DNA of 22,315 bases from a virus: positions 1 through 22,315 of the IMG/VR virus record IMGVR_UViG_3300023243_000078. One strand, written 5' to 3'. The notes beneath the pieces were generated by a model. It saw only the letters and a list, made by a program, of their open reading frames with translations, ran no database searches and was not told the DNA's origin. The position numbers and the translations under genes were made by a program. Shown here piece after piece: positions 3,494-20,156 of the stretch; the stretch's first letter is position 1, and every line of letters starts with the position of its first letter.

Positions 3494-3898
3494 TTAAAGT
3501 TTGTCGCCTATGTCAGTTGCTGACTTGGCCATTTTGGCAACTGTGTTGCTGCCAGCAGTATCACCTTGTGGTGTATCTGTTGCTTGTTTCTTAGTTTTTG
3601 GCTCAATACCTTTTTCACTAAAATTTTGGACCATTGCTTTTAATCTTGGATCTGTATCGTATGCTGCTTTAAATGTGCCGTAATCAAATTGCTCTGCACC
3701 AACGTTTTGCATAAGTTTATTAAGATCAAGATTCTTTGCATCTGATCTAATATCATTTACTGTTGGTTTGTTGAAATGTAAGAAAACGGAGACGCCTTTT
3801 TGATCAGCGTCTCCAATAACAGTTCTTAATACTTGTACTAACTTTAGTGAGGTAGATGCTTGGGGTTCACCTGCTTCATAAAGTTCAAATATTTTCAT
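3494..3898 (-). CDS. Hypothetical protein with head-targeting-like leader, 134 aa
   Basis: The protein starts MKIFELYEAGEPQ. The L-Y-E followed by A resembles the site cut by the T4 prohead protease (L/I-x-E, then a small residue), so the first eight residues may be a capsid-targeting leader. The rest is a mostly helical domain with a Gln/Thr/Gly-rich linker near residues 98-115. No enzyme motif is seen. It starts one base after the TAA of the 341-aa gene (TAAGATG), in the same transcription unit, and ends just upstream of the sigma-70 promoter. A minor head or internal virion protein is the best guess. Confidence 0.72.
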   Translation of the reverse strand: MKIFELYEAGEPQASTSLKLVQVLRTVIGDADQKGVSVFLHFNKPTVNDIRSDAKNLDLNKLMQNVGAEQFDYGTFKAAYDTDPRLKAMVQNFSEKGIEPKTKKQATDTPQGDTAGSNTVAKMAKSATDIGDKL

Positions 3899-3899
3899 C

Positions 3900-4925
3900 T
3901 TATTTACTAGTCTTACTTAAAATTGATCCTAGTCTACGTGATGTTTCAATTATTTTCTTTTTAGCATAGGTACGTGACTCACGACGCTCACGTCCTGCTT
4001 CTGCTTCGCCGCCAGCAGCTGGAGCTGCTGCTGCAAAATCGTCTGTATCTACAGTTGGTTCCATATCTTCAGCACCTGGTACTGGCTCTTCATCTGGTAG
4101 CTCTGCGCCCATATCCATCGCTGGTGCTTCACCTTCGCCAGTTAGCATGCCAACACCGCCTGTTAATGCAATACGTGTTGTTTCCATTGTTGCGTACAGT
4201 TGCTCTAGTGCAGGCTTAACTGAATTAGTAAATGCTTCTGATTGCTGGACACCCATTTCGTCGCGGATAGCATCAGCTAGTTCTAGCATTGATTCAGTTT
4301 GCATTTCAGCAGTGTCTTCCATCCAACCAGTTAAACGGTCAACCATATCTTTAGCTGCCATAATTAATTCTGCGTTGTCTTCTGCGCCTTCTTTGAGTAT
4401 TGATGCAAAGTAAGTGTCTATAATAGTTTTACCTTCGTCTACCTTTTTAGCAAATGGATTTACACCTTTTTTAGGCTTGTTACCTTTTGCGTCTTTAGCA
4501 GCTTTCTTCATTGGTTCTTTCTTGTCACCGTCTTTGTCTAAGTCAAGGAAGTCCGGCTTACTTTCATCAACTGGCTTGTCAGTAGCTCCATCCGCCGGCG
4601 CTTTGCCTTTTTTCTTATCTAACATCTTTTGGAACGCCGCTTTTTGTGCTGCTGTTTGTGCTTCTGAAATATCAGAACGCTCACTAATAGCAGCATTTAG
4701 AACATCAAGGAAAAGTTTGTTTTTGCTGTATGTTCTATTCTGCGATAGCCCACTGAAACTTTCATTTGTTTCAATATCAAATTGCTTTGTACGCATTTTG
4801 TTTCTTGCATCTTGTAGCTGTTCTAATGTAAACGAATCTACATTAATCGTTGTGCCAAATTTCTTTGCCATTGTTTCGTTTAGTGTTTTTGACGTCAATG
4901 GTTTATTCATATCTCTAATGTTCAT
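3900..4925 (-). CDS. Scaffold/core-like virion protein, 341 aa
   Basis: I choose the ATG at 4925 (MNIRDMNKPLTSKTLNETMA) because GGGGAAGAG lies 4 nt before it; a TTG five codons upstream is in frame but lacks such a site. The protein has an N-terminal helical part, a Lys/Asp-rich middle with a DLDKDGDKKEPM loop resembling an EF-hand/dockerin-type calcium loop, an acidic Ala/Pro/Glu-rich stretch around residues 265-315 and a basic C-terminus. The internal FASILKEG fits a prohead-protease cleavage site (L-K-E before G). Low complexity, high charge and the late promoter suggest a structural or scaffold-core protein. I recall similar proteins in marine T4-like phages, without an assigned function. 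Confidence 0.75.
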   Translation of the reverse strand: MNIRDMNKPLTSKTLNETMAKKFGTTINVDSFTLEQLQDARNKMRTKQFDIETNESFSGLSQNRTYSKNKLFLDVLNAAISERSDISEAQTAAQKAAFQKMLDKKKGKAPADGATDKPVDESKPDFLDLDKDGDKKEPMKKAAKDAKGNKPKKGVNPFAKKVDEGKTIIDTYFASILKEGAEDNAELIMAAKDMVDRLTGWMEDTAEMQTESMLELADAIRDEMGVQQSEAFTNSVKPALEQLYATMETTRIALTGGVGMLTGEGEAPAMDMGAELPDEEPVPGAEDMEPTVDTDDFAAAAPAAGGEAEAGRERRESRTYAKKKIIETSRRLGSILSKTSK

Positions 4926-4956
4926 GTTACTCTTCCCCAAGTAGTTTAATTATAGT

Positions 4957-4964
4957 TATTTATG
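4957..4964 (-). promoter_or_regulatory. Late promoter CATAAATA for the 341-aa gene
   Basis: The minus strand reads CATAAATA, 31 nt before the ATG at 4925. The leader contains a good GGGGAAGAG ribosome-binding site. The element lies just downstream of the stop codon of the previous gene. Confidence 0.6.
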
Positions 4965-4968
4965 CGTT

Positions 4969-5388
4969 TTATCTGAATATAATGCTATCAAGCGCCGACT
5001 TAGCATTAGCAGTTCTTGCCTTTGCAATTTCTAATCTAGTTAATATTACATCTTTTTTAAATTCGTCTTTGGTTGTTTTAATTGTATTTGTAAAGAACAA
5101 TGCATCCATATAATTCTTTTGAATGGTTTTATCTAAATCCATTACTATACTTATATTGTTAGTACCTTTAGACAAACTCTTAGCAAGAGCAAGTGCTGCT
5201 GTTTTACTAAAAGTAATCGCAACCTGTTTATTTTCTTGACAGTTATATATCAAAAATCCTTTTTTGCTGTCTCTTACAACCATTTTACCAATACGGATAC
5301 TGTTACCCTTTTGATAGGGAAACAAACTAGGATCTAGTTTATCTTCTATTAGATGTTGTAATTCTTTAAGTAATGTTGTGTTTGTCAT
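4969..5388 (-). CDS. Hypothetical protein, 139 aa
   Basis: I use the ATG at 5388 (MTNTTLLKELQHLIEDKL). A TTG three codons upstream is also in frame and would give 142 aa. The gene overlaps the end of the 71-aa gene by 23 nt. The protein is a mixed alpha/beta, Lys-rich soluble protein with no recognised motif; residues 40-65 (IGKMVVRDSKKGFLIYNC) look like a small beta domain, and the C-terminal 60 residues are helical. It is the last gene of the five-gene run starting at 6394, whose other members look virion-associated. Function unknown. Confidence 0.7.
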   Translation of the reverse strand: MTNTTLLKELQHLIEDKLDPSLFPYQKGNSIRIGKMVVRDSKKGFLIYNCQENKQVAITFSKTAALALAKSLSKGTNNISIVMDLDKTIQKNYMDALFFTNTIKTTKDEFKKDVILTRLEIAKARTANAKSALDSIIFR

Positions 5389-5581
5389 TTCTCGCAACCA
5401 TTATAACGTTATTTGATCGTATTTTACTTACCAAACTCTTGCGTATAAGGTTGTTCATTATGACTTGCTGTCTTTCAGTAAGACTGGACATAGGAGTAGG
5501 AGCGGAAAGATTCTCAAGCTCGACTTTCTCCTCATTGGTCATAAAGATTTTGAAATCTGTTAATAGCTCGTTTATTTTCAT
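5366..5581 (-). CDS. Hypothetical small protein, 71 aa
   Basis: The protein begins MKINELLTDFKIFMTNEEK. The first residues resemble the MK-x-x-E-L/I pattern of neighbouring proteins, but no clear L/I-x-E cleavage site follows. It is helical and charged, without a signal peptide or membrane segment. ATGA overlaps join it to the 84-aa gene upstream, and its 3' end overlaps the next gene by 23 nt. Function unknown. Confidence 0.65.
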   Translation of the reverse strand: MKINELLTDFKIFMTNEEKVELENLSAPTPMSSLTERQQVIMNNLIRKSLVSKIRSNNVIMVARNDKHNIT

Positions 5582-5832
5582 CTAACTGAAGCTAACTGTT
5601 GTTGCAAGGCTTTTAATTGATCTTGCGTTTGTTTAATTTGTGTTTGCAACTGTTGCTTCTGCTGTTGCTTCTGCTGATTCATTTGCTGTTGTTGTTTTGC
5701 TGCATCTGCAGGATTTGCGGTTGGAGCTGCTACGTTACCGTTGCCAGGTGTCTTTTGTCCTGGAACTGCTGGTTGTCCTGGAACTGCCGGAGGAGTCATT
5801 CCCATTTGTTGATCTAATTCAAAAATTTTCAT
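5578..5832 (-). CDS. Gln/Pro-rich coiled-coil protein, 84 aa
   Basis: The protein starts MKIFELDQQMG and contains two tandem PAVPGQ repeats near residues 15-26. An Ala/Asn/Pro-rich linker follows, then a Gln/Lys/Leu-rich heptad region from about residue 45 to the end, which should form a coiled coil. The composition is typical of a small structural or scaffold-associated protein. It overlaps both neighbours by four bases (ATGA), pointing to a translationally coupled operon. It shares the first five residues with the 134-aa protein at 3494-3898. No enzymatic role is suggested. Confidence 0.68.
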   Translation of the reverse strand: MKIFELDQQMGMTPPAVPGQPAVPGQKTPGNGNVAAPTANPADAAKQQQQMNQQKQQQKQQLQTQIKQTQDQLKALQQQLASVR

Positions 5833-6122
5833 AGTTTCTTTCTTCCTCTGCTTCTCGGCTTATTCATTGATTTTACACGTCTTGACACAGAATTAGTTGC
5901 TTTTGTGATACCTGCTTTACGTGTCATCATTCCGCCTTGACGTTTTTTAGTTAATGATAATGATTTACTCTTTTGTATATTTATTGGAGCATTACATGCT
6001 GCAGGACTTGCACGAACTTGTCCTTTTCGTGGGCCACTAGTGCATCTAAACTTTAGACTTTGAGATGCTCCAGATTTTGCATATGCTCTAGTAGCTTCTA
6101 TTACAAATTCGGCTGCTTTCAT
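5829..6122 (-). CDS. Basic virion-type protein, paralogue of its upstream neighbour, 97 aa
   Basis: The leader MKAAEFVIEATRAYAK has V-I-E before A, close to the T4 prohead-protease site pattern. The core LKFRCTSGPRKGQVRASPAACNAPINIQKS aligns with RKYRCTGGTRNGRIVAEPTQCFAPIDVKQR of the 91-aa protein upstream; both keep two Cys and a P-I-D/N turn. The C-terminus is strongly basic (MTRKAGITKATNSVSRRVKS, then KPRSRGRKKL). Such charge suggests DNA binding inside the head. The two genes overlap by four bases (ATGA), consistent with a tandem duplication. I recall such small basic proteins in marine T4-like phages, with no known function. Confidence 0.75.
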   Translation of the reverse strand: MKAAEFVIEATRAYAKSGASQSLKFRCTSGPRKGQVRASPAACNAPINIQKSKSLSLTKKRQGGMMTRKAGITKATNSVSRRVKSMNKPRSRGRKKL

Positions 6123-6394
6123 TTGTTCAGGCCTTTTGATAACCTAATACTTGCTGGATTTGTACGCTTAGTCTTCTTTGCTTTGCGTGCCATCTTCTTG
6201 CCTAAGCGTGCTCTAGTGCGTTTCATTAATGCTCGTTGTTTAACATCAATTGGAGCAAAACACTGTGTAGGTTCTGCCACAATACGACCATTACGAGTGC
6301 CGCCTGTACATCTGTACTTGCGCACAAGACTTGTTCCCTTGCGGGCCCATACTTGTTTTTCTTCTAGTGGTTTTGTAAACTCTCTTAATAACAT
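6119..6394 (-). CDS. Basic virion-type protein, 91 aa (tandem paralogue)
   Basis: The protein begins MLLREFTKPLEEKQVWARKG, with L-E-E as a possible leader cleavage site. Residues about 24-55 carry the same RCT-G-x-R-x-G ... C-x-A-P-I core as the 97-aa neighbour. The C-terminal half is very basic (RTRARLGKKMARKAKKTKRT). It is the first gene of the five-gene run down to 4969. The GATAAATA late promoter ends only five bases before the ATG and no ribosome-binding site is present, so the transcript is predicted to begin at or next to the start codon. The next in-frame Met is in the basic tail, so this start is the only sensible one. Confidence 0.74.
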   Translation of the reverse strand: MLLREFTKPLEEKQVWARKGTSLVRKYRCTGGTRNGRIVAEPTQCFAPIDVKQRALMKRTRARLGKKMARKAKKTKRTNPASIRLSKGLNK

Positions 6395-6399
6395 ATAGT

Positions 6400-6407
6400 T
6401 ATTTATC
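6400..6407 (-). promoter_or_regulatory. Late promoter GATAAATA abutting the 91-aa gene
   Basis: The minus strand reads GATAAATA-ACTAT-ATG. With T4 late geometry (box at -13 to -6) the first transcribed base would be the A of the ATG, giving a leaderless mRNA. Confidence 0.6.
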
Positions 6408-6419
6408 GAGAGCGGAAGG

Positions 6420-6650
6420 TTACTGCATTAAAATTACAATAACGATGGATAGTAAACTGGCAACTACTGTGCCTGCTGTGCCGATTAGCACTTTTGTGAT
6501 TGACTTCTGACCGTTGATCATATCGTCATGTATATTGTCGATTTTTGTTTCGACTTTGCCTAGGCGACCTTCTAATGCTTCGTAGCGTATTGCACATAAG
6601 TCAACGTGTGCTTCAAGGTTCGTTCTCTCTAATTCAGTAGTAACTGACAT
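6420..6650 (-). CDS. Small coiled-coil protein with C-terminal membrane anchor, 76 aa
   Basis: Residues 1-50 are helical with heptads (LEGRLGKVETKIDNIHDDMI). Residues about 53-75 (VLIGTAGTVVASLLSIVIVILM) form one membrane helix ending at the C-terminus. The layout resembles the XhlA/hemolysin-type small phage proteins associated with holins, so a role in lysis or a membrane-attached accessory role is plausible. GGAG lies 6 nt before the ATG. The leader carries a 17-nt palindrome and a stem-loop (6663-6682). No endolysin was seen nearby, so the lysis assignment is tentative. Confidence 0.7.
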   Translation of the reverse strand: MSVTTELERTNLEAHVDLCAIRYEALEGRLGKVETKIDNIHDDMINGQKSITKVLIGTAGTVVASLLSIVIVILMQ

Positions 6651-6662
6651 CTTATTCTCCGT

Positions 6663-6682
6663 AAAAACCTACACTCTGTAGG
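6663..6682 (-). terminator. Stem-loop with U-tract upstream of the 76-aa gene
   Basis: On the minus strand CCTACA-GAG-TGTAGG is followed by TTTTT. It looks like an intrinsic terminator for the 130-aa gene, but it sits in the leader of the 76-aa gene, 13 nt before its ATG. It may instead act as an attenuator or mRNA-stabilising hairpin. The loop core ACAGAGTGT also occurs in the leader of the 110-aa gene. Confidence 0.55.
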
Positions 6683-6730
6683 GTAAAGTAAACTCTTAGT
6701 TAGCCTTTGTTATGTTTGTAAGATGCCTGT

Positions 6731-6747
6731 TAGCTTAATTTAAGCTA
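6731..6747. repeat. 17-nt perfect palindrome
   Basis: TAGCTTAA-T-TTAAGCTA is a perfect inverted repeat with a single central base. It lies just downstream of the late promoter at 6754-6761 in the untranslated leader of the 76-aa gene. It could be a protein-binding site or an RNA hairpin. Confidence 0.5.
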
Positions 6748-6753
6748 CAAATG

Positions 6754-6761
6754 TATTTATC
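6754..6761 (-). promoter_or_regulatory. Late promoter GATAAATA for the 76-aa gene
   Basis: The minus strand reads GATAAATA and overlaps the stop codon of the 130-aa gene. The predicted leader to the ATG at 6650 is close to 100 nt and holds two inverted repeats. Confidence 0.5.
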
Positions 6762-7152
6762 ATTCTTCAATGATTTTAAACACTATATTAGTGTCATTTG
6801 GGTGATTGGTACGGAATATATTGTTATTGATTTTAGCAGTCTCGTCAAGCTCTGTAATAATAGGAACAAGGTCAAAGTCTGACATTAACATGTCTAATGT
6901 TAATGCATCTTCGTACTCGACTTCAAATGCAAACTCCCAGTAACGTTGTTTTCCTTTTGTGTTTGATCCAAATCCAAACTTGTCAATGTTGCTTACTTGC
7001 GAGCTACAACTAATAGGATTTATATTAACTCTGAGTCCAATAGTTTGTACTAAGGTATAATAGTTTGCTTGTTGATTAATAAGTCGCTTGTCGTCGCCGC
7101 GCCGGGCATTGGATTCTGTAATGTCAACAACTGTGGTTAATGTAAATTTCAT
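6760..7152 (-). CDS. Conserved phage hypothetical protein, 130 aa
   Basis: The protein starts MKFTLTTVVDITESNARRGD and contains a YTLVQTIGLRVNINPIS segment that I associate with a conserved hypothetical family of marine T4-like phages. It is all soluble, with predicted beta strands and no catalytic motif. Its ATG has no ribosome-binding site. Four bases upstream is TGTAAATA, a one-base variant of the late promoter, and the 18-nt stretch around the start is nearly identical to that of the hydrolase gene at 15659. It follows the terminator at 7170-7198 and so forms its own transcription unit. Function unknown. Confidence 0.75.
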   Translation of the reverse strand: MKFTLTTVVDITESNARRGDDKRLINQQANYYTLVQTIGLRVNINPISCSSQVSNIDKFGFGSNTKGKQRYWEFAFEVEYEDALTLDMLMSDFDLVPIITELDETAKINNNIFRTNHPNDTNIVFKIIEE

Positions 7153-7164
7153 ACTGTATTTACA
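7147..7164 (-). promoter_or_regulatory. TGTAAATA start-proximal promoter element
   Basis: The minus-strand 18-mer TGTAAATACAGTATGAAA includes the start codon of the 130-aa gene. It differs at one position from the 18-mer at 15647-15664 on the plus strand (TGTAAATACACTATGAAA). TGTAAATA resembles the late box TATAAATA. No Shine-Dalgarno site is present at either gene. Confidence 0.45.
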
Positions 7165-7169
7165 GCCAT

Positions 7170-7198
7170 AAAAAAAGGGCCCACTTAAAAGTGAGCCC
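7170..7198 (-). terminator. Intrinsic terminator after the 110-aa gene
   Basis: On the minus strand GGGCTCACTT-TT-AAGTGGGCCC forms a 10-bp stem with one U-G pair, followed by seven T. It is the strongest terminator on the minus strand in this window and ends the transcript of the 110-aa gene. Confidence 0.85.
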
Positions 7199-7199
7199 A

Positions 7200-7233
7200 G
7201 TGTGCCGAAGCACGGTTCCTAAGGTAGTTAGGA
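7200..7233 (-). other. 3' UTR structured element (two hairpins, TTCG tetraloop)
   Basis: Between the 110-aa gene and its terminator the minus strand holds CCTAA-CTACC-TTAGG, then GTGC-TTCG-GCAC, a C(UUCG)G-type stable hairpin. The 13-mer CTACCTTAGGAAC in this element recurs in the 3' region of the 206-aa gene (20312-20324). A role in 3' end stability is plausible. Confidence 0.5.
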
Positions 7234-7234
7234 T

Positions 7235-7567
7235 TTATGCTGCGTTGAATGTACTCAATGTACGTACAACTACGGTTGCTGCTGCAAGATTAACACCGTC
7301 TACTGTGCCTAGGGCTTGTAGACGACGTGTCATACCAGCTGCATCAACTGCGTGGCCGTCGACGATTGCAAAAATCTTACCAGCTGTGCCAGTTGATTCA
7401 TACATTAGTGGTGAAAACTCTCTAACGATAGTTTCAACTGCTCCGCCGATACCGTCTTTTGCTGTTAGGTCAACACCTGCATCGATTTCGATTGCAATGA
7501 TTTGTGCTGTAGCATATGCTACGCTGTGGTCGAAACCTGTGCCGTTTACTCTTGTGAACTCTGCCAT
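7235..7567 (-). CDS. Small conserved virion-type protein, 110 aa
   Basis: The protein starts MAEFTRVNGTGFDHSVAYAT. It is Ala/Val/Thr-rich with alternating beta strands (AIEIDAGVDLTAKDG, KIFAIVDGHAVD, AATVVVRTLSTF) and no signal, membrane segment or catalytic motif. It has its own unit: CTAAATA late-type box, a 55-nt leader with a stem-loop, AGGAG before the ATG, and a strong terminator after the stop. This isolated arrangement with a stabilised mRNA suggests high-level late expression, as for an abundant structural protein. I recall similar small proteins in T4-like marine phages but cannot name the family. Confidence 0.72.
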   Translation of the reverse strand: MAEFTRVNGTGFDHSVAYATAQIIAIEIDAGVDLTAKDGIGGAVETIVREFSPLMYESTGTAGKIFAIVDGHAVDAAGMTRRLQALGTVDGVNLAAATVVVRTLSTFNAA

Positions 7568-7594
7568 TTTATATTCTCCTATGATCTAATGGAC

Positions 7595-7611
7595 CTTCAC
7601 ACTCTGTGAAG
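7595..7611 (-). other. 5' UTR stem-loop of the 110-aa gene
   Basis: The minus strand reads CTTCACA-GAG-TGTGAAG, a 7-bp stem with a 3-nt loop, between the late promoter and the AGGAG site. It shares the ACAGAGTGT core with the stem-loop at 6668-6682 in front of the 76-aa gene. No U-tract follows, so it is not a terminator. Confidence 0.6.
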
Positions 7612-7617
7612 TTCTTG

Positions 7618-7630
7618 TAATGTATTTAGC
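7618..7630 (-). promoter_or_regulatory. CTAAATA late-type promoter for the 110-aa gene
   Basis: The minus strand carries GCTAAATACATTA. The identical 13-mer lies upstream of the 88-aa gene at 10800-10812, so this is likely a genuine variant of the late promoter box. Confidence 0.6.
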
Positions 7631-7652
7631 CTCTAAGACAAAAATATTGTTC

Positions 7653-8081
7653 TTAGCCTCTTTTTTGAGCTCTTTTGTGTAACACTCTTAGTAATTGCAC
7701 AAAACCTGGACCTGCTGATACAATGTCATCTAGCATTTCAATAGCAGGCTGCATTCCTTTAACATACGTTGCTGGTATGTTCTTACCTTCTTTAGCAAGT
7801 TCTAAAAATAACCTTACTCGCATTAGATTCTCAGCACCAACAATAAGTCTGTAGTTGATTATGTTTCTACTTTCAACTCTTTTAGCAATTCTGTCAAATG
7901 CAGCTTCGTTTATATAAACACTGTCAGCAGCATCAGAAATATCATGCCCGCCTTCCATGATCGCCCATTCACGAGCTGTATATCGCGGTTCATCTAAAAT
8001 TTTTAAATCTTCTAGAAACTTGTCTACATCTTCGTCAGTGATGAGAGTAGACTCGTTTACAATTGCTCTAATAAAATCCAT
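7653..8081 (-). CDS. Hypothetical late protein, 142 aa
   Basis: The protein begins MDFIRAIVNESTLITDEDVD; the IVNE-S stretch only loosely resembles the leader site of its neighbours. It is strongly helical and acidic/basic mixed, with a C-terminal LLRVLHKRAQKRG. No motif is recognised. The ATG shares one base with the TAA of the 145-aa gene (TAATG), so it belongs to the operon that starts at 10786 and is the last gene of it. A head or neck accessory protein is possible, on position only. Confidence 0.68.
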   Translation of the reverse strand: MDFIRAIVNESTLITDEDVDKFLEDLKILDEPRYTAREWAIMEGGHDISDAADSVYINEAAFDRIAKRVESRNIINYRLIVGAENLMRVRLFLELAKEGKNIPATYVKGMQPAIEMLDDIVSAGPGFVQLLRVLHKRAQKRG

Positions 8082-8518
8082 TATGCTCTTTTAGCTCTTG
8101 CTGCTTTTATTGCGCGACTTGCGTATTTGTCTGCTCGCATTGCATTTTTCCCGTCATCTGACGGATCAGCAAACTCATCAGGATCAGTATCGCTTTGATC
8201 AGTATCGTCTAGGCCACCTTGTTTATGATCTTTAGTTAACGCTGATTGCTGACTTTGTATTTTGTCTGCATAAGCCAATAGTTTTTTAATAACTTCGGGA
8301 CTAACTCCGGCTTTCTTTACAACATCTGCTAGATTCTTTGGTCCAAACAATGTACCAAAATCTGTTAGAGAACTACCAACTCGTGACATAGTATTTGATA
8401 ATGCATCGTCTTTGGTTGACGCTGCTTGACTCATTAGTATACGTCCGAAGTCTGCTAATTTACGCTGTTGTGGCGTCATTTCAAAATTAGCTTCGGCTAA
8501 TATTTCATTCATTTTCAT
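8081..8518 (-). CDS. Hypothetical protein with head-targeting-like leader, 145 aa
   Basis: The leader MKMNEILAEANFEMTPQQR has L-A-E before A, an excellent match to the T4 prohead-protease cleavage pattern (compare T4 internal proteins, which start MKTYQEFIAE). The body is helical, then an acidic linker (DDTDQSDTDPDEFADPSDDG), then a basic, Ala-rich C-terminus. AAGGAA precedes the ATG. It lies between the ligase-like gene and the 142-aa gene in one operon. A head-packaged internal protein is the preferred reading; no enzymatic motif is visible. Confidence 0.72.
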   Translation of the reverse strand: MKMNEILAEANFEMTPQQRKLADFGRILMSQAASTKDDALSNTMSRVGSSLTDFGTLFGPKNLADVVKKAGVSPEVIKKLLAYADKIQSQQSALTKDHKQGGLDDTDQSDTDPDEFADPSDDGKNAMRADKYASRAIKAARAKRA

Positions 8519-8530
8519 AATTGCAATTCC

Positions 8531-9676
8531 TTATCTTTGTACGGCTCTATTGGCTCTTGTAAAAAATTCTCTAGGTACTAATTTAACGTCACCGTCTGGA
8601 TGTGCTAGTACGTATCCTTCGCCACCAGCGCCGTGCCCTGGTATGTTTGCTTTTACGGTTGCATCGTGTGCATCAAATTGAGCAATCACTTTGTCCTTGA
8701 TCTGCATGATACCTGACACTACTTGCCATATTGCATCAAACCCTGCTTGATTATTTTGTATGTGCGTTGCAATGTTCTTTTGTTTGTTCGGCGATAGTTT
8801 AGAACTTGCCATCCAGTCAAAGAAGTCTGAGCCTAAGTTTTCTAAACCTGTATCAACTTTACCGTTAGTATATGCATAAAGCACTTTTGCAAAGTCTGAT
8901 ATTTTTAATTCTGTTAGTGCTGCAATATCCAACAGTTTATCAATTGCACCTGCATTCTTAGCAACTGCTGCTTTAAGTTGATTAATATCTTCGTCTTCAA
9001 TCTCTGGTGATTTTTGTACAGTCACGGATGGAAATATTAATACATCATTGCCCTGGAAGTCTATGCCTTGTGGTACTGCACTTTCGTTGCCATCTTCGTC
9101 AATAAGTCTGTGTACAACTACTCCAGTTATACTAGACCCAATACGTTTACCTAGGTCGCTGCTAATATCAACTGCATACTCTACTATGTTCGGCTTGAAC
9201 ACAAAGTTCTTATCTTTTACTGGCGGAGTGTTATAATATAACAGATCACCTTTTAAGTAACCGCGGAAGTCTGTTGGAGTTGCACGTTCGTACAAATCAA
9301 AGATGCCTCGCATGTTACCTGCAAAAGAAACATATCCCGGATTCTCTCTGTTCTTACCACCACTACGGTTTAAGAACATTTGTTCTAGGTCGTCGCCGCT
9401 TTTACTCTTACCGTCGTAACCCTTTGCGCTAAAGCCGCTTTTGTCTGTGAGTACAAACTCGCCGTCAGTGTTGCGGCCAAAGATAATAGCAGGACTGCCA
9501 TCCCATTTAATAGTAACATTTGTGTGCTTCCCTTGTTCTAAACTCTTAAGGCTTTCTAATGCACGAATTGCTCCGCGGCTACCTTCCCAGAACACAATGT
9601 CTTCTGCGTGGTCAATGCGAGCACCTTCTTTAAGGTATACACGACTTTCAACTAGTTTAATATCACGGTATCTCAT
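8531..9676 (-). CDS. Ligase-like nucleotidyltransferase with head-targeting-like leader
   Basis: This 381-aa protein shows the ordered motifs of the covalent nucleotidyltransferase superfamily (ATP-dependent DNA/RNA ligases and capping enzymes). Motif I is K57-W-D-G60 (TIKWDGSPAIIFGR), a motif III-like KGDLLYY is at 142-148, motif IV is E353-G-Y-V-L and motif V is V364-K-L-V. Motifs III and IV are far apart, so about 200 residues may be inserted. K57 would be the lysine that becomes adenylylated. The N-terminus MRYRDIKLVES, then YLKEG, offers two L-x-E sites before S and G, like T4 head-protein leaders. Its ATG overlaps the stop of the nucleotidyltransferase gene (ATGA). Nucleic-acid end joining or repair is the inferred role; the substrate is unknown. 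Confidence 0.68.
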   Translation of the reverse strand: MRYRDIKLVESRVYLKEGARIDHAEDIVFWEGSRGAIRALESLKSLEQGKHTNVTIKWDGSPAIIFGRNTDGEFVLTDKSGFSAKGYDGKSKSGDDLEQMFLNRSGGKNRENPGYVSFAGNMRGIFDLYERATPTDFRGYLKGDLLYYNTPPVKDKNFVFKPNIVEYAVDISSDLGKRIGSSITGVVVHRLIDEDGNESAVPQGIDFQGNDVLIFPSVTVQKSPEIEDEDINQLKAAVAKNAGAIDKLLDIAALTELKISDFAKVLYAYTNGKVDTGLENLGSDFFDWMASSKLSPNKQKNIATHIQNNQAGFDAIWQVVSGIMQIKDKVIAQFDAHDATVKANIPGHGAGGEGYVLAHPDGDVKLVPREFFTRANRAVQR

Positions 9677-10536
9677 CTGTTAAATGCTCCTGAACTCATA
9701 ACAACACTGTTCAATGGTGCACCACTTAGTTCTCTAATTCTACGCAACTGTTTATCAGCCAACGATTCAACTTGTGATTCAGGCACTTCTTTGCCTGCCT
9801 TTTCCATTGTTTCTTTCCACGGAGCAATAAGCTGTTCGTAGTCTGGATCGCCTTTGAGTCTTGCAAGTATACTTTCAACTGTGTGCGTGTCGGCTTCTTT
9901 AGCACCTTTACCTAATAGCAACGATGCAATTTCATCCCAGTCATCAGCAACAACAGCATCTCCGTTGTTAGGATCAACAACACCAAACTTAGGACTAAAC
10001 TTTAGTCCACGTCCTCTTGCTAGACTTGACAACAATATTGCTCTGTCTGTTCCGCCGAACTGTGCTGTTCCGCCACGCTTGGCTCCTCTTTGGAATTTAG
10101 GATTGTTTGTAAACATAAAGTCTGTTTGCACAAATCCTTTTTGGTCAGTGCCGTCGATAGGTGTACGGAAGTGAACTTGGTCACCAGCGTCCTTGATCCA
10201 ACCTGCTTCGAACCCCTTGCCTTTGTTCATAATTTCTAAGTCTGGAATGCCTTGTCCCTTGCACCAAGCTGCAAGTTTAGCAATTAGTTGTTCTTTGCTA
10301 ACTTTAGATGCATCTGTGTTTAAGTCTAAGTCACCTGAGCTATTCTTTTCAAATGCTCCATCTGGGTCATTCTTCTTACCAGTTGTGCCTAGCCAATCTT
10401 CTTCATCAAATACTAAGCCTGTAATCTTTTCAATAAATTGAATCGTAGGATGTACATCTTGAGTAGCAATACGTTGTGTTAATGGACCTTCTGTACTTTT
10501 AAATACGTTGCCGCCTTCTTTAAGAATTGCTGTCAT
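9673..10536 (-). CDS. Polymerase-beta-like nucleotidyltransferase with head-targeting-like leader
   Basis: This 287-aa protein has the minimal nucleotidyltransferase pattern. G50-TTGKK is followed about 16 residues later by S67-G-D69-L-D71-L, and a third carboxylate, D139, lies in the strand FVQTDFMF. D69, D71 and D139 would bind the catalytic metals. The glycine motif is GTTG rather than the usual GS, so activity is not certain. The start MTAILKEGGN has L-K-E before G, matching the T4 prohead-protease site. It overlaps the upstream 88-aa gene by 17 nt and the downstream ligase-like gene by four bases. The coupling suggests that the two enzymes work on the same nucleic-acid ends. Confidence 0.62.
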   Translation of the reverse strand: MTAILKEGGNVFKSTEGPLTQRIATQDVHPTIQFIEKITGLVFDEEDWLGTTGKKNDPDGAFEKNSSGDLDLNTDASKVSKEQLIAKLAAWCKGQGIPDLEIMNKGKGFEAGWIKDAGDQVHFRTPIDGTDQKGFVQTDFMFTNNPKFQRGAKRGGTAQFGGTDRAILLSSLARGRGLKFSPKFGVVDPNNGDAVVADDWDEIASLLLGKGAKEADTHTVESILARLKGDPDYEQLIAPWKETMEKAGKEVPESQVESLADKQLRRIRELSGAPLNSVVMSSGAFNR

Positions 10537-10786
10537 TATTCTTACTCTCTATAACTTTTTGGATACCGCGTCTAAACTTTTTAGGATCTCCGCTTTTAAT
10601 AGCATTGATAAATCTACGCTCAAGTTCGCCAGCTGTTACATCATCATATGTACTTGCGATTCTATTAAGCAAGTTAATACTACTTTCGATGATATTATTA
10701 GCAGATGTCTCAATTTGTTTGTCGCTACTATATGTGCGGCCAAAGCTGTTGAGTTCTTCTAAAATGCTTCTTGTGCGTTTTTTCAT
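10520..10786 (-). CDS. Hypothetical helical protein, 88 aa
   Basis: The protein begins MKKRTRSILEELNSFGRTYS; I-L-E near the start could be a leader site. It is helical and basic, with LNRIASTYDDVTAGELERRF near the middle and KKFRRGIQKVIES near the end. It is the first gene of the operon running to 7653, and CGGAG lies before the ATG. Its 3' end overlaps the nucleotidyltransferase gene by 17 nt. Function unknown; a partner or head-packaging function is only suggested by position. Confidence 0.68.
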   Translation of the reverse strand: MKKRTRSILEELNSFGRTYSSDKQIETSANNIIESSINLLNRIASTYDDVTAGELERRFINAIKSGDPKKFRRGIQKVIESKNNDSNS

Positions 10787-10825: not shown

Positions 10826-10852
10826 AGAGTACTACACTTGGGGGAGGGCATA

Positions 10853-11620
10853 ATGTCTATATCAGAGATGAATTTCAAAGAAAGATCCTTATTGTTTGCA
10901 AAACTTGCGAGTACTGCTTATAATAACTTAAAGGACGCAAAAAGTCAAGCAAAGAGTTTAGGCTTTACAACTGTAGAGTTTTATGATAAAGATGGTGCTC
11001 AGGCATATCGATTCATGAACGCAGACGATTTAGTTATTGCCTGTCGCGGCACCGAACCTACACAGTTTAACGACATTGCAGCAGACCTGCGGGCTATTCC
11101 AGTAGTTGCAGAAACTATCAGTAGAGTACACAAAGGCTTTAAAGCAGAAGTAGATGAACTTTGGCCAATGATATGTGACGACCTAGTTCGTACAGTTAAT
11201 CGAAGCAAGGCAGTTTGGTTCTGTGGGCACAGTTTGGGCGCAGCGATGGCAACTATTATGGCAAGTCGTTGCCGACTTTATGCAAGCGTTCCTAATCCGC
11301 AAGAGCTTTACACATACGGTTCGCCTAGAGTAGGGTGGCCTAATTATGTTAAAAGCCTAGGCGTAGTGCATCATCGTTGGAAGAACAATAACGATATTGT
11401 TACAACTGTTCCTCCTATGCTGTTAGGATTTAGACATCACGGTATACAGCATTACCTAAATGCCTACGGACAAGTTCGTAACCCAACTGGATGGCAGATG
11501 GTTAAAGATCGTTGGCGCGGTATCTGGATGGGACTAAAGCAAGGCAAGATAGATAGCTTTAGTGATCATTCAATAGATGAATACATCAAACACCTAGAAA
11601 ACTATAACAAAGAGGCTTAA
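10853..11620 (+). CDS. Class 3 lipase-like alpha/beta hydrolase
   Basis: I choose the ATG at 10853 (MSISEMNFKERSLLFAKLAS); GGGGGAGGG lies just upstream, and a TTG five codons earlier is less likely. The 255-aa protein fits the lipase_3 family: DDLVIACRGTEPTQFNDIAADL (oxyanion region), GHSLGAAMA with nucleophile near S127, YTYGSPRVGW, Asp near 181 in NNNDIVTTVPP, and a C-terminal His in SDHSIDEY. All three triad residues are present, so it is probably an active lipase/esterase. No signal peptide is seen, so it would act in the cytoplasm, after lysis or as a virion part. It has a late promoter and its stop overlaps the convergent dehydrogenase stop. Confidence 0.88.
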   Translation: MSISEMNFKERSLLFAKLASTAYNNLKDAKSQAKSLGFTTVEFYDKDGAQAYRFMNADDLVIACRGTEPTQFNDIAADLRAIPVVAETISRVHKGFKAEVDELWPMICDDLVRTVNRSKAVWFCGHSLGAAMATIMASRCRLYASVPNPQELYTYGSPRVGWPNYVKSLGVVHHRWKNNNDIVTTVPPMLLGFRHHGIQHYLNAYGQVRNPTGWQMVKDRWRGIWMGLKQGKIDSFSDHSIDEYIKHLENYNKEA

Positions 11621-12387: not shown

Positions 12388-12416
12388 ATACTAACACGAC
12401 TTTATTTAAATGTCAA
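12388..12416 (-). promoter_or_regulatory. Sigma-70 extended -10 promoter for the dehydrogenase gene
   Basis: On the minus strand TTGACA (12416-12411), a 17-nt spacer and TAGTAT (12393-12388), preceded by TGT. The -35 overlaps the stop codon of the glycosyltransferase. AGGAAA lies before the ATG. The layout matches that of the NifU-like operon promoter. Confidence 0.75.
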
Positions 12417-13123
12417 TCCCAATATTTAGAATAATCCATATTATCCCAGTACTTCTGATTGTTGCGATTTAAAAAGTTCTTAATAAGATACCAGGCCATG
12501 CCAAAGTATCCCATCTTTTGAAAACGTCTGCTGTCTTGTCCAAAGTAATGGTTAAGTAGTTTAAACTTCTTAACATCATACATTTTACTTAGAAAGAAGT
12601 CTTCGCTAGTTTGAAACTTACCAGGAAAGCCGCCTAGCTGTTCAAACTTATCTCTACGTGTGAGCATGAATGCGCCTACTGCAAATGGAACAAAGTGTTG
12701 CATCACACTGTTGATTACGTTGAATAACGTAAACCCTACCTTAGCTATAACGTCATTGTCATAGCACTTGATATACAGCCCTACTAGATCTAACTGTTGC
12801 TGTTCTAGTGCTTGCACACTGTCAACGATAACACTGTCTGAAAAGAAACGTACATCACTATCAATAAACAGTATGTAAGGAGTCGTTACTTGCTTGGCTC
12901 CGTTGTTCTTTGCTTCGCTTACAGGGCCACCTTGTATAATTTGTACGTTTAAGTTGCTCTTCTTTTCGTTGATCACTTTACGAGTATTGTCTGTGCTTGC
13001 ATCAGCAATGATAATCTTGGTGTTACCTATGCCTTGTTGTTTACGTAGGTCGTTTAATAAGTGTTCAATATAATCTTCTTCATTCTTACAAGGGACTACT
13101 ATGGTTATTTTTTCTGAGAGCAT
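12413..13123 (-). CDS. Family 2 glycosyltransferase (cassette copy 1)
   Basis: This 236-aa protein is a GT-A fold family 2 enzyme. ITIVVPCKNEEDYIEHLL is at the start, ADASTDNT follows, D88-S-D90 is the nucleotide-sugar/metal-binding DxD, and TSEDFFLS near residue 170 supplies the acidic catalytic region. Two hydrophobic segments (about 128-155) may dip into the membrane. It adds a sugar to a lipid or glycan acceptor, not identifiable from sequence. GGAGG precedes the ATG. It overlaps the small 58-aa gene by 19 nt and follows the LpxH-like gene. A close paralogue of equal length lies at 18528-19238 in the same arrangement. Confidence 0.88.
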   Translation of the reverse strand: MLSEKITIVVPCKNEEDYIEHLLNDLRKQQGIGNTKIIIADASTDNTRKVINEKKSNLNVQIIQGGPVSEAKNNGAKQVTTPYILFIDSDVRFFSDSVIVDSVQALEQQQLDLVGLYIKCYDNDVIAKVGFTLFNVINSVMQHFVPFAVGAFMLTRRDKFEQLGGFPGKFQTSEDFFLSKMYDVKKFKLLNHYFGQDSRRFQKMGYFGMAWYLIKNFLNRNNQKYWDNMDYSKYWD

Positions 13124-13281
13124 ATTGCCTCCAATTTAAATTGTTTAAATTTTATATCGTATCCAAGAGTGTCAGCCGCTGACCGGCATTGTTGTTCACT
13201 TGGAAACTGCATCGTTAATCTCGCCTGCTGATCACTTGGATCGTTTATGTGTACTGCTAGTATTATCAATAACCACATCAT
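13105..13281 (-). CDS. Small membrane-anchored protein with two Cys (cassette copy 1)
   Basis: I start this 58-aa protein at the double ATG at 13281/13278 because AGGAG lies just upstream; a longer frame would read back into the phosphoesterase gene. It begins MMWLLIILAVHINDPSDQQA: a short hydrophobic N-terminus, an N-D-P-S/T-D-Q-P/Q turn, then MQFPSEQQC and a C-terminal Cys. Both Cys are conserved in the copy 2 paralogue, which suggests a disulfide outside the cytoplasm, though the N-terminus is short for a signal peptide. It sits between the phosphoesterase and glycosyltransferase genes in both copies, so it probably helps this pair. Function unknown. Confidence 0.75.
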   Translation of the reverse strand: MMWLLIILAVHINDPSDQQARLTMQFPSEQQCRSAADTLGYDIKFKQFKLEAICSQKK

Positions 13282-13288
13282 CTGACTC

Positions 13289-14029
13289 CTAAGTTGGGTT
13301 GCTGTGAGTGTAGATTTCAAATGTTCCGTCTAGGTGTTCTAGCAAAGCTGTAGCACTTTCTACCCAGTCGCCGTCATTCATATATTCTATACGGCCTATC
13401 TTCTTAATCTCTGCATGGTGTATATGACCACAGATGATTCCGTCGTAGCCTTTATTCTCGCAATACTCTGCTACATATTCTTCATAGCGGTTGATAAACT
13501 TAACTGCTTGTTTGGTATTGTCTTTGAGCCATTTACTTAGGCTCCAGTAGTTCATGCCTATTAGTTTTCTAACACGATTAAACTGTATGTTAAACCATAT
13601 CGTGCTATCGTAAAGCGTGTCACCAAAGTGCATTAACCACTTCTTATCTTTCATTAGTACATCAAAGAAATCGCCATGTATGACTAGATACTTTTTGCCG
13701 TTTACTGCTGTGTAGTCATACCTGTTTAGGATTTTAATACGTCCAAAGCTAATGTCAAACTTTAAAAAAGTTCTTAATCCTTCATCATGATTGCCCAGGA
13801 TATAATATACTTTGGTATTGCGTTTAGCTGCTGTTAATATGCTGCGTATTACGTTAGCGTGACTTTGCGGGAAGTACCAACGTTTGCGTAGTCTCCAGCC
13901 ATCTAGTATGTCGCCAACTAGGAATAGATTATCGCAGGTGTGTGTTTTTAAAAAAGCACAGAGAGCGTCTGCTTGACACCCCCGTGTACCTAAATGTATG
14001 TCACTTATGAATATACTTTTATAATGCAT
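13289..14029 (-). CDS. LpxH-like metallophosphoesterase (cassette copy 1)
   Basis: This 246-aa protein carries all calcineurin-like metallophosphoesterase motifs: S9-D10-I-H12, G39-D40-I-L-D, G79-N80-H81-D82-E, an HGD near residue 118 and GHIHHAE near 200. The context IFISDIHLGTRG and the LpxH-type length and spacing point to UDP-2,3-diacylglucosamine hydrolase relatives, which act in lipid A synthesis at the inner membrane. The final MNDGDWVESATALLEH is typical of this group. It is the first gene of the cassette; its stop TAG is within the TAGGAG site of the small gene. A near-leaderless start follows a CTAAATA late box. The exact substrate in phage infection is unknown. Confidence 0.85.
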   Translation of the reverse strand: MHYKSIFISDIHLGTRGCQADALCAFLKTHTCDNLFLVGDILDGWRLRKRWYFPQSHANVIRSILTAAKRNTKVYYILGNHDEGLRTFLKFDISFGRIKILNRYDYTAVNGKKYLVIHGDFFDVLMKDKKWLMHFGDTLYDSTIWFNIQFNRVRKLIGMNYWSLSKWLKDNTKQAVKFINRYEEYVAEYCENKGYDGIICGHIHHAEIKKIGRIEYMNDGDWVESATALLEHLDGTFEIYTHSNPT

Positions 14030-15646: not shown

Positions 15647-15664
15647 TGTAAATACACTATGAAA
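15647..15664 (+). promoter_or_regulatory. TGTAAATA start-proximal promoter element
   Basis: TGTAAATACACTATGAAA contains the hydrolase start codon and differs in one base from the element at 7147-7164. No Shine-Dalgarno site is present. A TTGGCA 18 nt upstream might serve as a weak -35. Confidence 0.4.
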
Positions 15665-16234
15665 ATAGTGTACATACATGGTGCTAATGCTACCGGTGAA
15701 AGTTTTAATTATATAAAAAACAAACTAGGTAGCGGCATAGACGTCAATTACGACAGTAGCAATGGGTTTGAAAATAATCTAAAAGACATGCAGGCAGCAC
15801 TAGACGGGCAGACTGATCTAGTGTTTGTTGCTCACAGTCTAGGTGGCATCTACAGTTTGCATCTAGCTAATAGCATGCCCAATGCTGTTAAAGGTGCCAT
15901 AACACTAAGCACCCCCTATGGTGGTGCAGCATCCGCAGACTATGCCAAATATTTCTTACCATTTAGTCGACTGATGCATGATATTGGCCCTAGCAGTTGG
16001 GCAATGAAACAGGCTGATAAGATTAAGATACAGCATCAGTGGACTAATGTAGTAACAGTCAAAGGACAAAGTCCATTTATGCACGAGCCCAATGATGGTG
16101 TAGTGACTATTGCTAGTCAAAAGCACCACGCAGATATGGAACTAATAGAAGTAGATTTTAACCACTATGAGGTTGTGCTTAGTGACGTAGTGGTTGGGCT
16201 TATTCAAGAACGAGTAAACAAGTTCAAGAAATAA
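15659..16234 (+). CDS. Alpha/beta hydrolase (esterase/lipase-like), 191 aa
   Basis: The protein begins MKIVYIHGANATGESFNYIK, with the HGAN oxyanion segment. VFVAHSLGGIYSLHLA has the nucleophile S60. GAITLSTPYGG is typical of PGAP1/triacylglycerol-lipase-like hydrolases. HEPNDGVVT (Asp near 145) and FNHYEV (His near 167) complete a triad. It is a second lipolytic-type enzyme in this window, unrelated in detail to the class 3 lipase at 10853. There is no signal peptide. The start lacks a ribosome-binding site and lies four bases from a TGTAAATA box. The substrate is unknown; a lipid or a small ester is likely. Confidence 0.82.
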   Translation: MKIVYIHGANATGESFNYIKNKLGSGIDVNYDSSNGFENNLKDMQAALDGQTDLVFVAHSLGGIYSLHLANSMPNAVKGAITLSTPYGGAASADYAKYFLPFSRLMHDIGPSSWAMKQADKIKIQHQWTNVVTVKGQSPFMHEPNDGVVTIASQKHHADMELIEVDFNHYEVVLSDVVVGLIQERVNKFKK

Positions 16235-18527: not shown

Positions 18528-19238
18528 TTAACTCCAATACCTAGATGAATCCAAGCTATCCCAATAGGCCTTGTTGTTGCGGTTGACAAAGTTCTTGATT
18601 AAGTACTTGGCCATCCCAAGATAGCCCATCTTCTTGAACCTACGACTATCCTGTCCAAAGTGATGGCGGAGGATTCTAAACTTTCTTGGACTGTACTTTC
18701 TAGATAGGAAGAAGTCCTCGGAAGTTGAAAACTGTTCAGGAAAGCCACCGAGCTCTTCAAAACGATCTTTACGAGTAAGCATGAATGCTCCGACGGCAAA
18801 TGGAGAGAAATATTTTATTGTGTGGTTGATTAAGTTAAATGCGGTGAATCCAATCTTTGCTCGTAAGTCATTGTCATAGCATTTGATGTTTAGTCCGATG
18901 AGATCTAGGTTCTCAGACTCGATTAAATTGACAGCATCTTTAATCACAGTGCCTTTAAAGAACCGCACATCGGCATCAATGAATAGAATGTAAGGAGTAG
19001 TCACTAGCTGTGCTCCGCTGTTCTTGGCTATAGAAACAGGACCACCTTCGATGATTTCGACCTGCAATGCGCCTTTGTTATCTTGTATAACTTGCCTAGT
19101 ACTATCAGTAGAGCAGTCAGCTATGATAACTCTGGTATCACCTATATCTTGGTCGCGTAGAGCATCTAACAAATGATGTATATAGTTTTCCTCATTCTTA
19201 CAAGGTACCACAATGGTAATGGTATCACTTAATTTCAT
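18528..19238 (-). CDS. Family 2 glycosyltransferase (cassette copy 2)
   Basis: I use the ATG at 19238 (MKLSDTITIVVPCKNEENYI): it overlaps the stop of the small gene (ATGA) and gives 236 aa, exactly the length of copy 1. An ATG four codons upstream is also in frame. ADCSTDST, a D-A-D motif (DSD in copy 1) and TSEDFFLS are conserved, as is the C-terminal FGQDSRRFKKMGYLGMAKYL. The two copies are clearly similar along their whole length, more so than expected for general family 2 enzymes. The role is transfer of a sugar onto an envelope glycan or lipid; donor and acceptor are unknown. Confidence 0.88.
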   Translation of the reverse strand: MKLSDTITIVVPCKNEENYIHHLLDALRDQDIGDTRVIIADCSTDSTRQVIQDNKGALQVEIIEGGPVSIAKNSGAQLVTTPYILFIDADVRFFKGTVIKDAVNLIESENLDLIGLNIKCYDNDLRAKIGFTAFNLINHTIKYFSPFAVGAFMLTRKDRFEELGGFPEQFSTSEDFFLSRKYSPRKFRILRHHFGQDSRRFKKMGYLGMAKYLIKNFVNRNNKAYWDSLDSSRYWS

Positions 19239-19405
19239 TGTTTCTTGCATTGACCTGTTACCTTAAAATTTTTAAACTTTAGTTGCCACTGGATCGTGTT
19301 TAGAGCTTGCTCGCAACTCTGTTGGTCCGGAAATTGCATCTCCACTCTCCCTGGCTGATCGGTTGGGTCGTTTACGTGCATTGCTATTAGTATCAGTATC
19401 CACAT
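19235..19405 (-). CDS. Small membrane-anchored protein with two Cys (cassette copy 2)
   Basis: This 56-aa protein starts MWILILIAMHVNDPTDQPGR and continues VEMQFPDQQSCEQALNTIQW with a second Cys near the end. It matches the copy 1 protein in the hydrophobic start, the H-V/I-N-D-P-S/T-D-Q turn, MQFP, both Cys and the FK-x-FK stretch. AAGGAG lies before the ATG. It lies entirely or nearly entirely within the same strand as the extended 3' end of the phosphoesterase gene, in another frame, and its TGA overlaps the glycosyltransferase ATG. The homology with copy 1 shows that this frame is the ancestral coding one here. Confidence 0.8.
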   Translation of the reverse strand: MWILILIAMHVNDPTDQPGRVEMQFPDQQSCEQALNTIQWQLKFKNFKVTGQCKKQ

Positions 19406-20156
19406 CGTCGCTCTCCTTGGTCCAAGTTACAATTTCCCAACGGCCACAGTGATGTTCTACCAATGCTGTGCATGATTCAACCCAGTCGCCGTCATTCATA
19501 TACACAATGCCATCTATCTCTTTGATCTCTGCATGATGTATATGTCCACATATAACACCATCAAATCCTCGCTTCTTGCAGTAGGCCACTAGGTTCTTTT
19601 CAAACTGGAATATAAAGTCCACAGCCTTCTTAACTCGTGCTTTGAGATATTGGCTAAGGCTCCAGTAGCCAAAGCCCATACGATGCCGGATCCAGTTAAA
19701 TTTACTGTTAGCAGATAGGATAAAGTCATATGCCTTATCGCCTAAGAATGCCAACCAGGGCGCTAGTCTAGTAATACCATCAAACAGATCGCCGTGTGTG
19801 ACTAGGTAGTGTTTGGTGTCTACACCTATGTGTTCAAATTGATTAACAACTTCTACATTACCAAAGTTAATACCATAAGGCATAAGAGGTCTTAGAAATT
19901 CATCGTGATTGCCTGCTACGTAGATTACTCGTGTGCCACGTTTAGCGTGTCCAAGTATACGTCTTACAACGTTGGTATGACTCTGCTTCCAACGCCATTT
20001 GTTTTGTTGTATACGCCAAACATCTAATATATCTCCCACGAGATAAAGTGTTTCGCATGTGTTGTGTTTAAGGAAATTGTTGAGTTTGTCTGCTTGACTA
20101 TCTCTAGTGCCAAGGTGAACGTCAGAAATAAAAATACTGCGATAAGTTTTTAGCAT
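19272..20156 (-). CDS. LpxH-like metallophosphoesterase with read-through tail (cassette copy 2)
   Basis: The 294-aa protein keeps all metallophosphoesterase motifs seen in copy 1: ISDVHLGTRD, VGDILD, AGNHDE, THGD and GHIHHAE, then MNDGDWVESCTALVEHH. Copy 1 ends soon after (THSNPT and stop). Here the stop is lost: the codons reading TAG in copy 1 correspond to AAG, with about nine bases missing before it. The frame then runs on for some 45 residues (ESDDVDTDTNSNARKRPNRS and further), which overlie the small gene in another frame. So the tail is most likely not a conserved domain. Substrate inferred as UDP-diacylglucosamine-like, as for copy 1. Confidence 0.83.
   Translation of the reverse strand: MLKTYRSIFISDVHLGTRDSQADKLNNFLKHNTCETLYLVGDILDVWRIQQNKWRWKQSHTNVVRRILGHAKRGTRVIYVAGNHDEFLRPLMPYGINFGNVEVVNQFEHIGVDTKHYLVTHGDLFDGITRLAPWLAFLGDKAYDFILSANSKFNWIRHRMGFGYWSLSQYLKARVKKAVDFIFQFEKNLVAYCKKRGFDGVICGHIHHAEIKEIDGIVYMNDGDWVESCTALVEHHCGRWEIVTWTKESDDVDTDTNSNARKRPNRSARESGDAISGPTELRASSKHDPVATKV

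Follow-up and report, generated by a model that had tools for sequence, protein, structure and literature searches.

Can a phage carry in its head the enzymes that restore and seal broken nucleic acid ends? The question is raised by two overlapping minus-strand genes of a T4-like marine phage, in a 22.3-kb viral record of IMG/VR, of which the full stretch of 22,315 nucleotides was analysed and is referred to here as the window. No near match to the window, by DNA, was found among 50,697 phage records. The upstream gene (9673-10536) encodes a 287-aa protein and the downstream gene (8531-9676) a protein of 381 aa; the ATGA stop/start overlap that the first-pass annotation had described between them was confirmed at 9673-9676, and the same -4 overlap is found in most relatives. 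The RNA-repair systems known in phages consist of genes that are expressed in the course of infection, and to our knowledge few counter-defences act at the stage that precedes phage gene expression. In this work, we present the evidence that these genes encode two functionally coupled nucleotidyltransferases, that their N-termini resemble prohead protease sites, and that a role in end repair immediately after infection would account for both features.

Predicted activities of the two proteins

The first-pass annotation had recognized in the 287-aa protein the glycine, DxD and third-aspartate pattern of polymerase-beta-type nucleotidyltransferases, and comparison with homologues bears this out. 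Its motifs read L49-G50-T-T-G53, D69-L-D71 and Q137-T-D139, and residues G50, G53, D69, D71, Q137 and D139 show no variation among 44 relatives, out to those of jumbo phages and Lak megaphages. By sequence, the predicted metal-binding pair is encoded by the D69-L70-D71 codons at 10324-10332, and the predicted third catalytic aspartate, D139, at 10120-10122, both on the minus strand. No Pfam match was obtained for this protein, and Pfam and PDB sequence searches, with single sequences and with profiles, returned nothing informative. Its AF2 model (pLDDT 87.3, pTM 0.76) was more telling: the best PDB matches found by Foldseek were DNA polymerases beta, lambda and mu (probability 1.00, E 1.7e-3, TM about 0.4), aligned over some 220 columns, and all 50 PDB matches listed were family X polymerases. 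The structural comparison that had been proposed with MNT-type transferases thus upheld a nucleotidyltransferase fold of the family X kind, with the modelled fold appearing nearer to polymerases beta, lambda and mu than to the minimal MNT type. Identity with RlaP (PF10127) was considered and rejected, given that no profile match was obtained for the protein or among its 40 relatives; Atu_ph07 encodes RlaP and an Rnl2-type ligase in genes distinct from its copy of the pair.

The 381-aa protein is a member of Pfam DUF6267 (PF19782; E 9e-33, 114.5 bits against a curated cut-off of 27), whose profile is matched by all 38 members of our ligase alignment, and it also matches phrog_455 (E 1.6e-20). 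Neither DUF6267 nor PHROG 455 carries a function annotation, no mention of DUF6267 was found in our literature search, and Pfam and PDB sequence searches, single and profile, gave nothing informative beyond DUF6267 itself. The 106 phage records that match the family come almost entirely from T4-like cyanophages and their kin, for example Methylophilales phage Melnitz. Relatives of the 381-aa protein were gathered from viral contigs and phage records, and the motifs previously noticed in ligase order in this protein (KWDG, GDLLY, EGYVL and VKLV) were examined across them. They correspond to K57-W-D59-G60, G143-D144-L-L-Y, E353-G354-Y-V and V-K365-L-V, follow the order in which motifs I, III, IV and V occur in covalent nucleotidyltransferases (the ligase superfamily), and contain eight residues (K57, D59, G60, D144, E353, G354, K365 and V367) that are invariant in 57 diverse DUF6267 proteins. 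The predicted adenylylated lysine, K57, has its codon at 9506-9508 on the minus strand. Motif III of DUF6267 is the invariant G-D144-L-L-Y, without the usual glutamate.

The AF2 model of the 381-aa protein (pLDDT 87.8, pTM 0.83) displays a helical insert at about residues 228-336, preceding the EG motif, and a single helix formed by the 16 residues that follow K365. DNA ligases carry an OB-fold after motif V. With only 16 residues beyond this motif, the 381-aa protein therefore has no DNA-ligase-like OB-fold, and a C-terminal OB-fold (motif VI) is absent from both its sequence and its model; this argues against membership in the ATP-dependent DNA ligases, and no profile match to Rnl2 (PF09414) was obtained. 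For the predicted ligase fold, for which a structural check had also been suggested, the model is confident and the matches are remote. Among the remote BFVD matches, those with names, below the DUF6267/cytidyltransferase group, were mostly RNA ligases and polynucleotide kinase/ligases, whereas the PDB search gave as its top match a fungal tRNA-ligase adenylyltransferase domain at a level without significance (E 0.055, TM 0.16).

The ligase reading of DUF6267 rests more on homology to proteins of jumbo phages than on the fold search. In Atu_ph07, Phosso and PA5oct, a gene with KxDG and EGxV...K motifs adjoins or lies near the polymerase homologue. A three-sequence profile of the jumbo-phage proteins aligned to DUF6267 in the EG/KLV region only, and a clear link was obtained after relatives had been added on both sides: in hhalign, the profile of 26 jumbo-phage ligases matched that of DUF6267 at 99.9% (E 1.7e-34, 281 columns), against 0.1% for the reversed jumbo profile used as a control. 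K57, D59, G60, E353, G354 and K365 are kept in 24-26 of these 26 homologues, the remainder being gaps, and K57 is invariant bar two gaps among 83 diverse ligase homologues; the jumbo-phage set further has an invariant glutamate (E79 of P0003), a candidate counterpart of the motif III residue. As judged by these profiles, DUF6267 is homologous to the jumbo-phage ligases. Eight of 14 jumbo-phage ligases matched Pfam RNA_ligase (PF09414) below its cut-off (best 8e-4), five of the 14 matched DUF6267, and one homologue is named RNA ligase in UniProt. Weak in-register matches to T4 Rnl1 were obtained with the jumbo ligase profile over motifs I-III and IV-V (best E 0.0036, probability 9%). The DUF6267 profile was also compared directly with T4 Rnl2, Rnl1 and DNA ligase and gave no convincing match, T4 DNA ligase scoring at background. 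Our reading is that the 381-aa protein would be an RNA-ligase-like enzyme, with a putative place in that family. Computation thus reveals two enzyme classes whose catalytic residues are kept in homologues, as the first-pass annotation had anticipated, and we regard it as highly probable that the pair consists, as predicted, of two nucleotidyltransferase-type enzymes.

Coupling of the two genes and fusion to further enzymes

With each window protein as query, both genes were present in 146 of 153 loci, mostly with the same 4-base overlap; since the ligase query favours loci in which the two genes adjoin, this set carries some bias, and the argument is built on the polymerase-query set and on clusters. 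When an alignment of distant jumbo-phage and Lak polymerases alone served as a second query, the ligase adjoined the polymerase gene or shared its ORF in 75 of the best 80 loci. Two of the five exceptions encode a jumbo-type ligase elsewhere in the genome, and no ligase was found in three of the best 80 contigs, which may be fragments. After clustering at 60% identity, 21 of 23 clusters displayed a ligase fused to the polymerase or within 1.7 kb. Fusion of polymerase and ligase was found in 32 ORFs, about a dozen of them with distinct junctions. No adjacent ligase was found for the polymerase-type gene of a Lak phage, nor was a ligase found at loci L092 and L136, which have enough flank. The jumbo phages display the ligase gene first and a very different ligase sequence, giving two gene orders overall, and this reversed order together with the strong divergence of the ligase argues that the two genes have stayed together, or been reunited, in the face of extensive sequence change. 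The coupling proposed in the first-pass annotation is therefore sustained by adjacency in unrelated phages, two gene orders and repeated fusions, and we consider it practically certain that the polymerase-type and ligase-type proteins are functionally coupled. At four loci where the two genes are separated (L018:2009-2850, L035:4086-5058, L042:4314-5970 and L045:2925-3756), the product of the inserted gene has a peptidoglycan-binding-like repeat, and other parts of it look lysozyme- or peptidase-like in sequence.

Some of the fusions include further domains. The L056 polyprotein is ordered as a HIGH-type nucleotidyltransferase (with a GRFQPF motif and a weak match to a PHROG cytidyltransferase), a HAD domain, the polymerase and the ligase, and that of L055 contains, besides polymerase and ligase, HAD, HD and zincin-like HEIEH domains. 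The HAD domain of both polyproteins matches a PHROG polynucleotide-kinase family, and the presence of a phosphatase, a nucleotide adder and a ligase together suggests healing and sealing of ends. Sites of the [LI]xE type are located at the domain junctions of both polyproteins. These very long multi-enzyme ORFs (L055:3-4289 and L056:3625-7095) have the look of head polyproteins.

N-terminal leaders and the surrounding gene block

In phage T4, short N-terminal leaders steer internal head proteins into the prohead, where gp21 cuts after L/I-x-E (PMC9026906). The first-pass annotation had pointed to prohead-protease-like sites at the start of both window proteins. The leader of the 287-aa protein (10516-10536, minus strand) reads MTAILKE followed by GGNVF, with a predicted cut after E7, and that of the 381-aa ligase (9623-9676, minus strand) reads MRYRDIKLVE-SRVYLKE followed by GARIDHAED; here the cuts are predicted to fall behind E10 (in LVE) and E18 (in LKE), as numbered by motif. 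The sites are conserved: 62 of the 63 distinct windows ahead of the ligase domain contain [LI]xE, compared with 7% of internal windows, and of about 217 polymerase-type ORFs with a leader, 211 display [LIV]xE immediately before GG. In the AF2 models, residues 1-6 of the polymerase and 1-20 of the ligase have pLDDT below 50, both leaders being disordered. Jumbo-phage polymerases, which lack a leader, start with M-GGxAF, the very residues that a leader cut would expose, and the cyanophage DUF6267 proteins, also leaderless, start near the HLED motif. At 7 residues, the polymerase leader is shorter than the 10-19 of T4. It is very likely, in our judgement, that these leaders are prohead protease sites, as predicted.

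The leaders are shared with neighbouring genes. An [LI]xE within residues 3-22 is present in 16 of the 35 window genes, against 3.4 +/- 1.6 expected, and 11 of these 16 fall among the 15 genes of the minus-strand block at 3494-10786, which contains the pair; this suggests that the whole block is likely to represent head cargo or a virion module. PHROG head-and-packaging families are matched by two genes of the minus-strand run around the pair: the upstream 88-aa gene (10520-10786, minus strand), which overlaps the start of the polymerase-type gene, bears the leader SILEE and matches phrog_11854 (E 3.7e-14), a virion structural (head and packaging) family, and the gene at 3900-4940, which matches phrog_14154. 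The T4 late promoter TATAAATA, searched as a marker of head blocks, displayed no excess over chance. Several N-termini of the [LI]xE genes of this block read MKIFEL, MKINELL, MKMNEILAEA and MLLREFTKPLEE. Two overlapping genes (5829-6122 and 6119-6394, minus strand) encode small basic proteins, apparently paralogous, with a common segment of the KxRCTxGxRxGxxxAxPxxC type.

The L051 pair lies on a 110-kb contig that also encodes a T4-type prohead protease (Peptidase_S77, E 1e-27); Peptidase_S77 was not found in nine other contigs, which are possibly fragments, and no prohead protease was found in the 22-kb record of the window, which is too short to be informative. Virion proteomes, to which the first-pass annotation had looked for both proteins, gave a divided answer. 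The PA5oct homologue of the polymerase, EST35_0231, a remote one, is annotated as 'structural protein, ESI-MS/MS', in a list that also includes an FtsH homologue and may therefore contain contaminants; the PA5oct ligase gene bears no MS-detected annotation, and the proteins that MS detected in the S-CREM2 virion do not include that of its DUF6267 region (58914-59762). The presence of the pair in virions is thus supported indirectly, and we judge it probable that both proteins are packaged in the phage head.

An end-repair model and its alternatives

The mechanism that we infer from these findings would proceed as follows. Each N-terminal leader would direct its protein to the prohead core, where a T4-type prohead protease would cut after [LI]xE to leave mature N-termini of GGNVF on the polymerase-type enzyme and GARIDHAED on the ligase. 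Both mature proteins would enter the cell with the phage DNA at infection; the polymerase-beta-type enzyme would then restore the missing nucleotide or nucleotides at a broken 3' end; its ligase partner, the DUF6267 protein, would adenylylate itself on K57, activate the 5'-phosphate and seal the break. The likeliest substrate would be RNA, for instance a tRNA that a defence ribonuclease has cleaved during the first minutes. Leader cleavage, injection, the enzyme activities and the RNA substrate are all predicted steps, and injection, end repair and an anti-defence role appear plausible to us; for the nucleotide trimming also attributed to the pair in the first-pass annotation, no support was found. 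We give a head-carried, probably injected healing-and-sealing pair, acting in RNA repair rather than in DNA gap repair, close to an even chance of being correct. A fuller version, in which the DUF6267 ligase and a new Pol-beta family form a head-packaged, protease-matured repair kit that is injected with the genome, with polyproteins that also comprise HAD, HIGH-nucleotidyltransferase and HD domains being cleaved within the prohead in some phages, so that repair would be on hand ahead of phage gene expression, is put forward only tentatively.

The choice of substrate separates this model from one in which the pair acts as a viral Pol X and DNA ligase to fill and then seal gaps or breaks of the incoming phage DNA just after entry, whether to repair damage, to join ends or to circularise the genome. 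We favour RNA on account of the resemblance of the ligase to RNA ligases and its lack of an OB-fold, and RNA seems to us the somewhat likelier substrate, with DNA retaining an appreciable minority chance because the polymerase fold is nearest to the family X DNA polymerases and the jumbo-phage pairs sit downstream of a DnaB-like helicase/primase. There is also a precedent in African swine fever virus (ASFV), where a small virus-coded Pol X-type enzyme and a DNA ligase serve in repair (PMC5330486, PMC6344480). However, the approximately 0.4 TM score of the polymerase match gives no decision between DNA and RNA, the weak named matches of the 381-aa family are RNA ligases, and T4 DNA ligase compared with it at background level. 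Taken as a whole, gap repair of DNA is a rather unlikely explanation, albeit one to be reckoned with.

A different view of the leaders holds that the two enzymes are coupled in the infected cell and never packaged, the leader serving assembly or regulation, or having been recombined from a head gene. The proteomic results for the S-CREM2 DUF6267 and the PA5oct ligase fit this view, as does the retention of the enzyme in cyanophage and jumbo-phage homologues that are mostly leaderless; but leader sites that are in register and near-invariant, disordered in the models and repeated throughout a gene block, together with one homologue annotated as a virion protein, make it improbable. Finally, DUF6267 might transfer nucleotides to something other than a broken end, capping or adenylylating a protein, an RNA 5' end or a metabolite with the NMN-adenylyltransferase-like 'cytidyltransferase' as its partner. 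In many cyanophages, a HIGH-type cytidyltransferase-like gene adjoins DUF6267 or forms a fusion with it, no polymerase of the window's family was found near DUF6267 there, and cytidyltransferases of this kind are present in cyanophage virions (PMC3037559, PMC10665884). Nevertheless, the polymerase-type partner in the window lineage and in jumbo phages suits end repair better, and the OB-fold expected of capping enzymes is absent, so that we rate this option as the most improbable of those considered. In cyanophage S-CRM01, DUF6267 has a large kinase-like gene two genes away (L159:7655-10120), and since a putative Ser/Thr kinase has been reported in virions of this phage (PMC10665884), this DUF6267 neighbourhood may be head cargo too.

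Comparable pairs have been described, contrary to what was first supposed. RlaP proteins of jumbo phages are polymerase-beta enzymes that work with RNA ligases and, as has been proposed, replace lost nucleotides ahead of the sealing step (PMC7824862); they share with the pair the link between a Pol-beta-superfamily nucleotidyltransferase and a ligase, whereas the 287-aa protein has no RlaP match, and that source does not describe RlaP as head-packaged. T4 tRNA repair by Pnkp (PseT) and RNA ligase 1 (RnlA) likewise heals and seals ends in a T4-like phage, and its ligase, Rnl1, is the one to which the jumbo relatives of the 381-aa protein display their weak in-register similarity; unlike the window pair, it relies on a kinase-phosphatase instead of a polymerase, and its products are not known as head cargo. 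The ASFV enzymes are also a described small Pol X-type enzyme plus ligase, and differ from the pair in belonging to a eukaryotic virus, in their DNA substrate and in the membership of the ligase in the DNA ligase family. With the T4 head proteins Alt and IPI-IPIII, which are ejected into the host, the pair shares a short leader ending in L/I-x-E (PMC9026906), which can be shorter in the window type; known T4 cargo, in contrast, consists of an ADP-ribosyltransferase and small proteins rather than nucleic-acid repair enzymes. What looks new here is a Pol-beta family outside RlaP, the assignment of DUF6267 to the ligases, the deep and repeated coupling of the two, and leaders that predict head delivery. 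If the end-repair model is true, head-delivered repair would be at work before phage gene expression can be halted by defence ribonucleases or nucleases, DUF6267, recurrent in T4-like cyanophages, would gain a function, and a testable link would be established between capsid-targeting leaders and nucleic-acid repair.

Elsewhere in the window, a duplicated cassette comprising a family-2 glycosyltransferase and a calcineurin-like phosphoesterase occurs in two diverged copies (12413-14029 and 18528-20156, minus strand). On the plus strand, the gene at 10838-11620 encodes a class 3 lipase-like protein (PF01764, E 3.6e-19) and that at 15659-16234 a second alpha/beta hydrolase; lipase and hydrolase genes are unusual for a phage.
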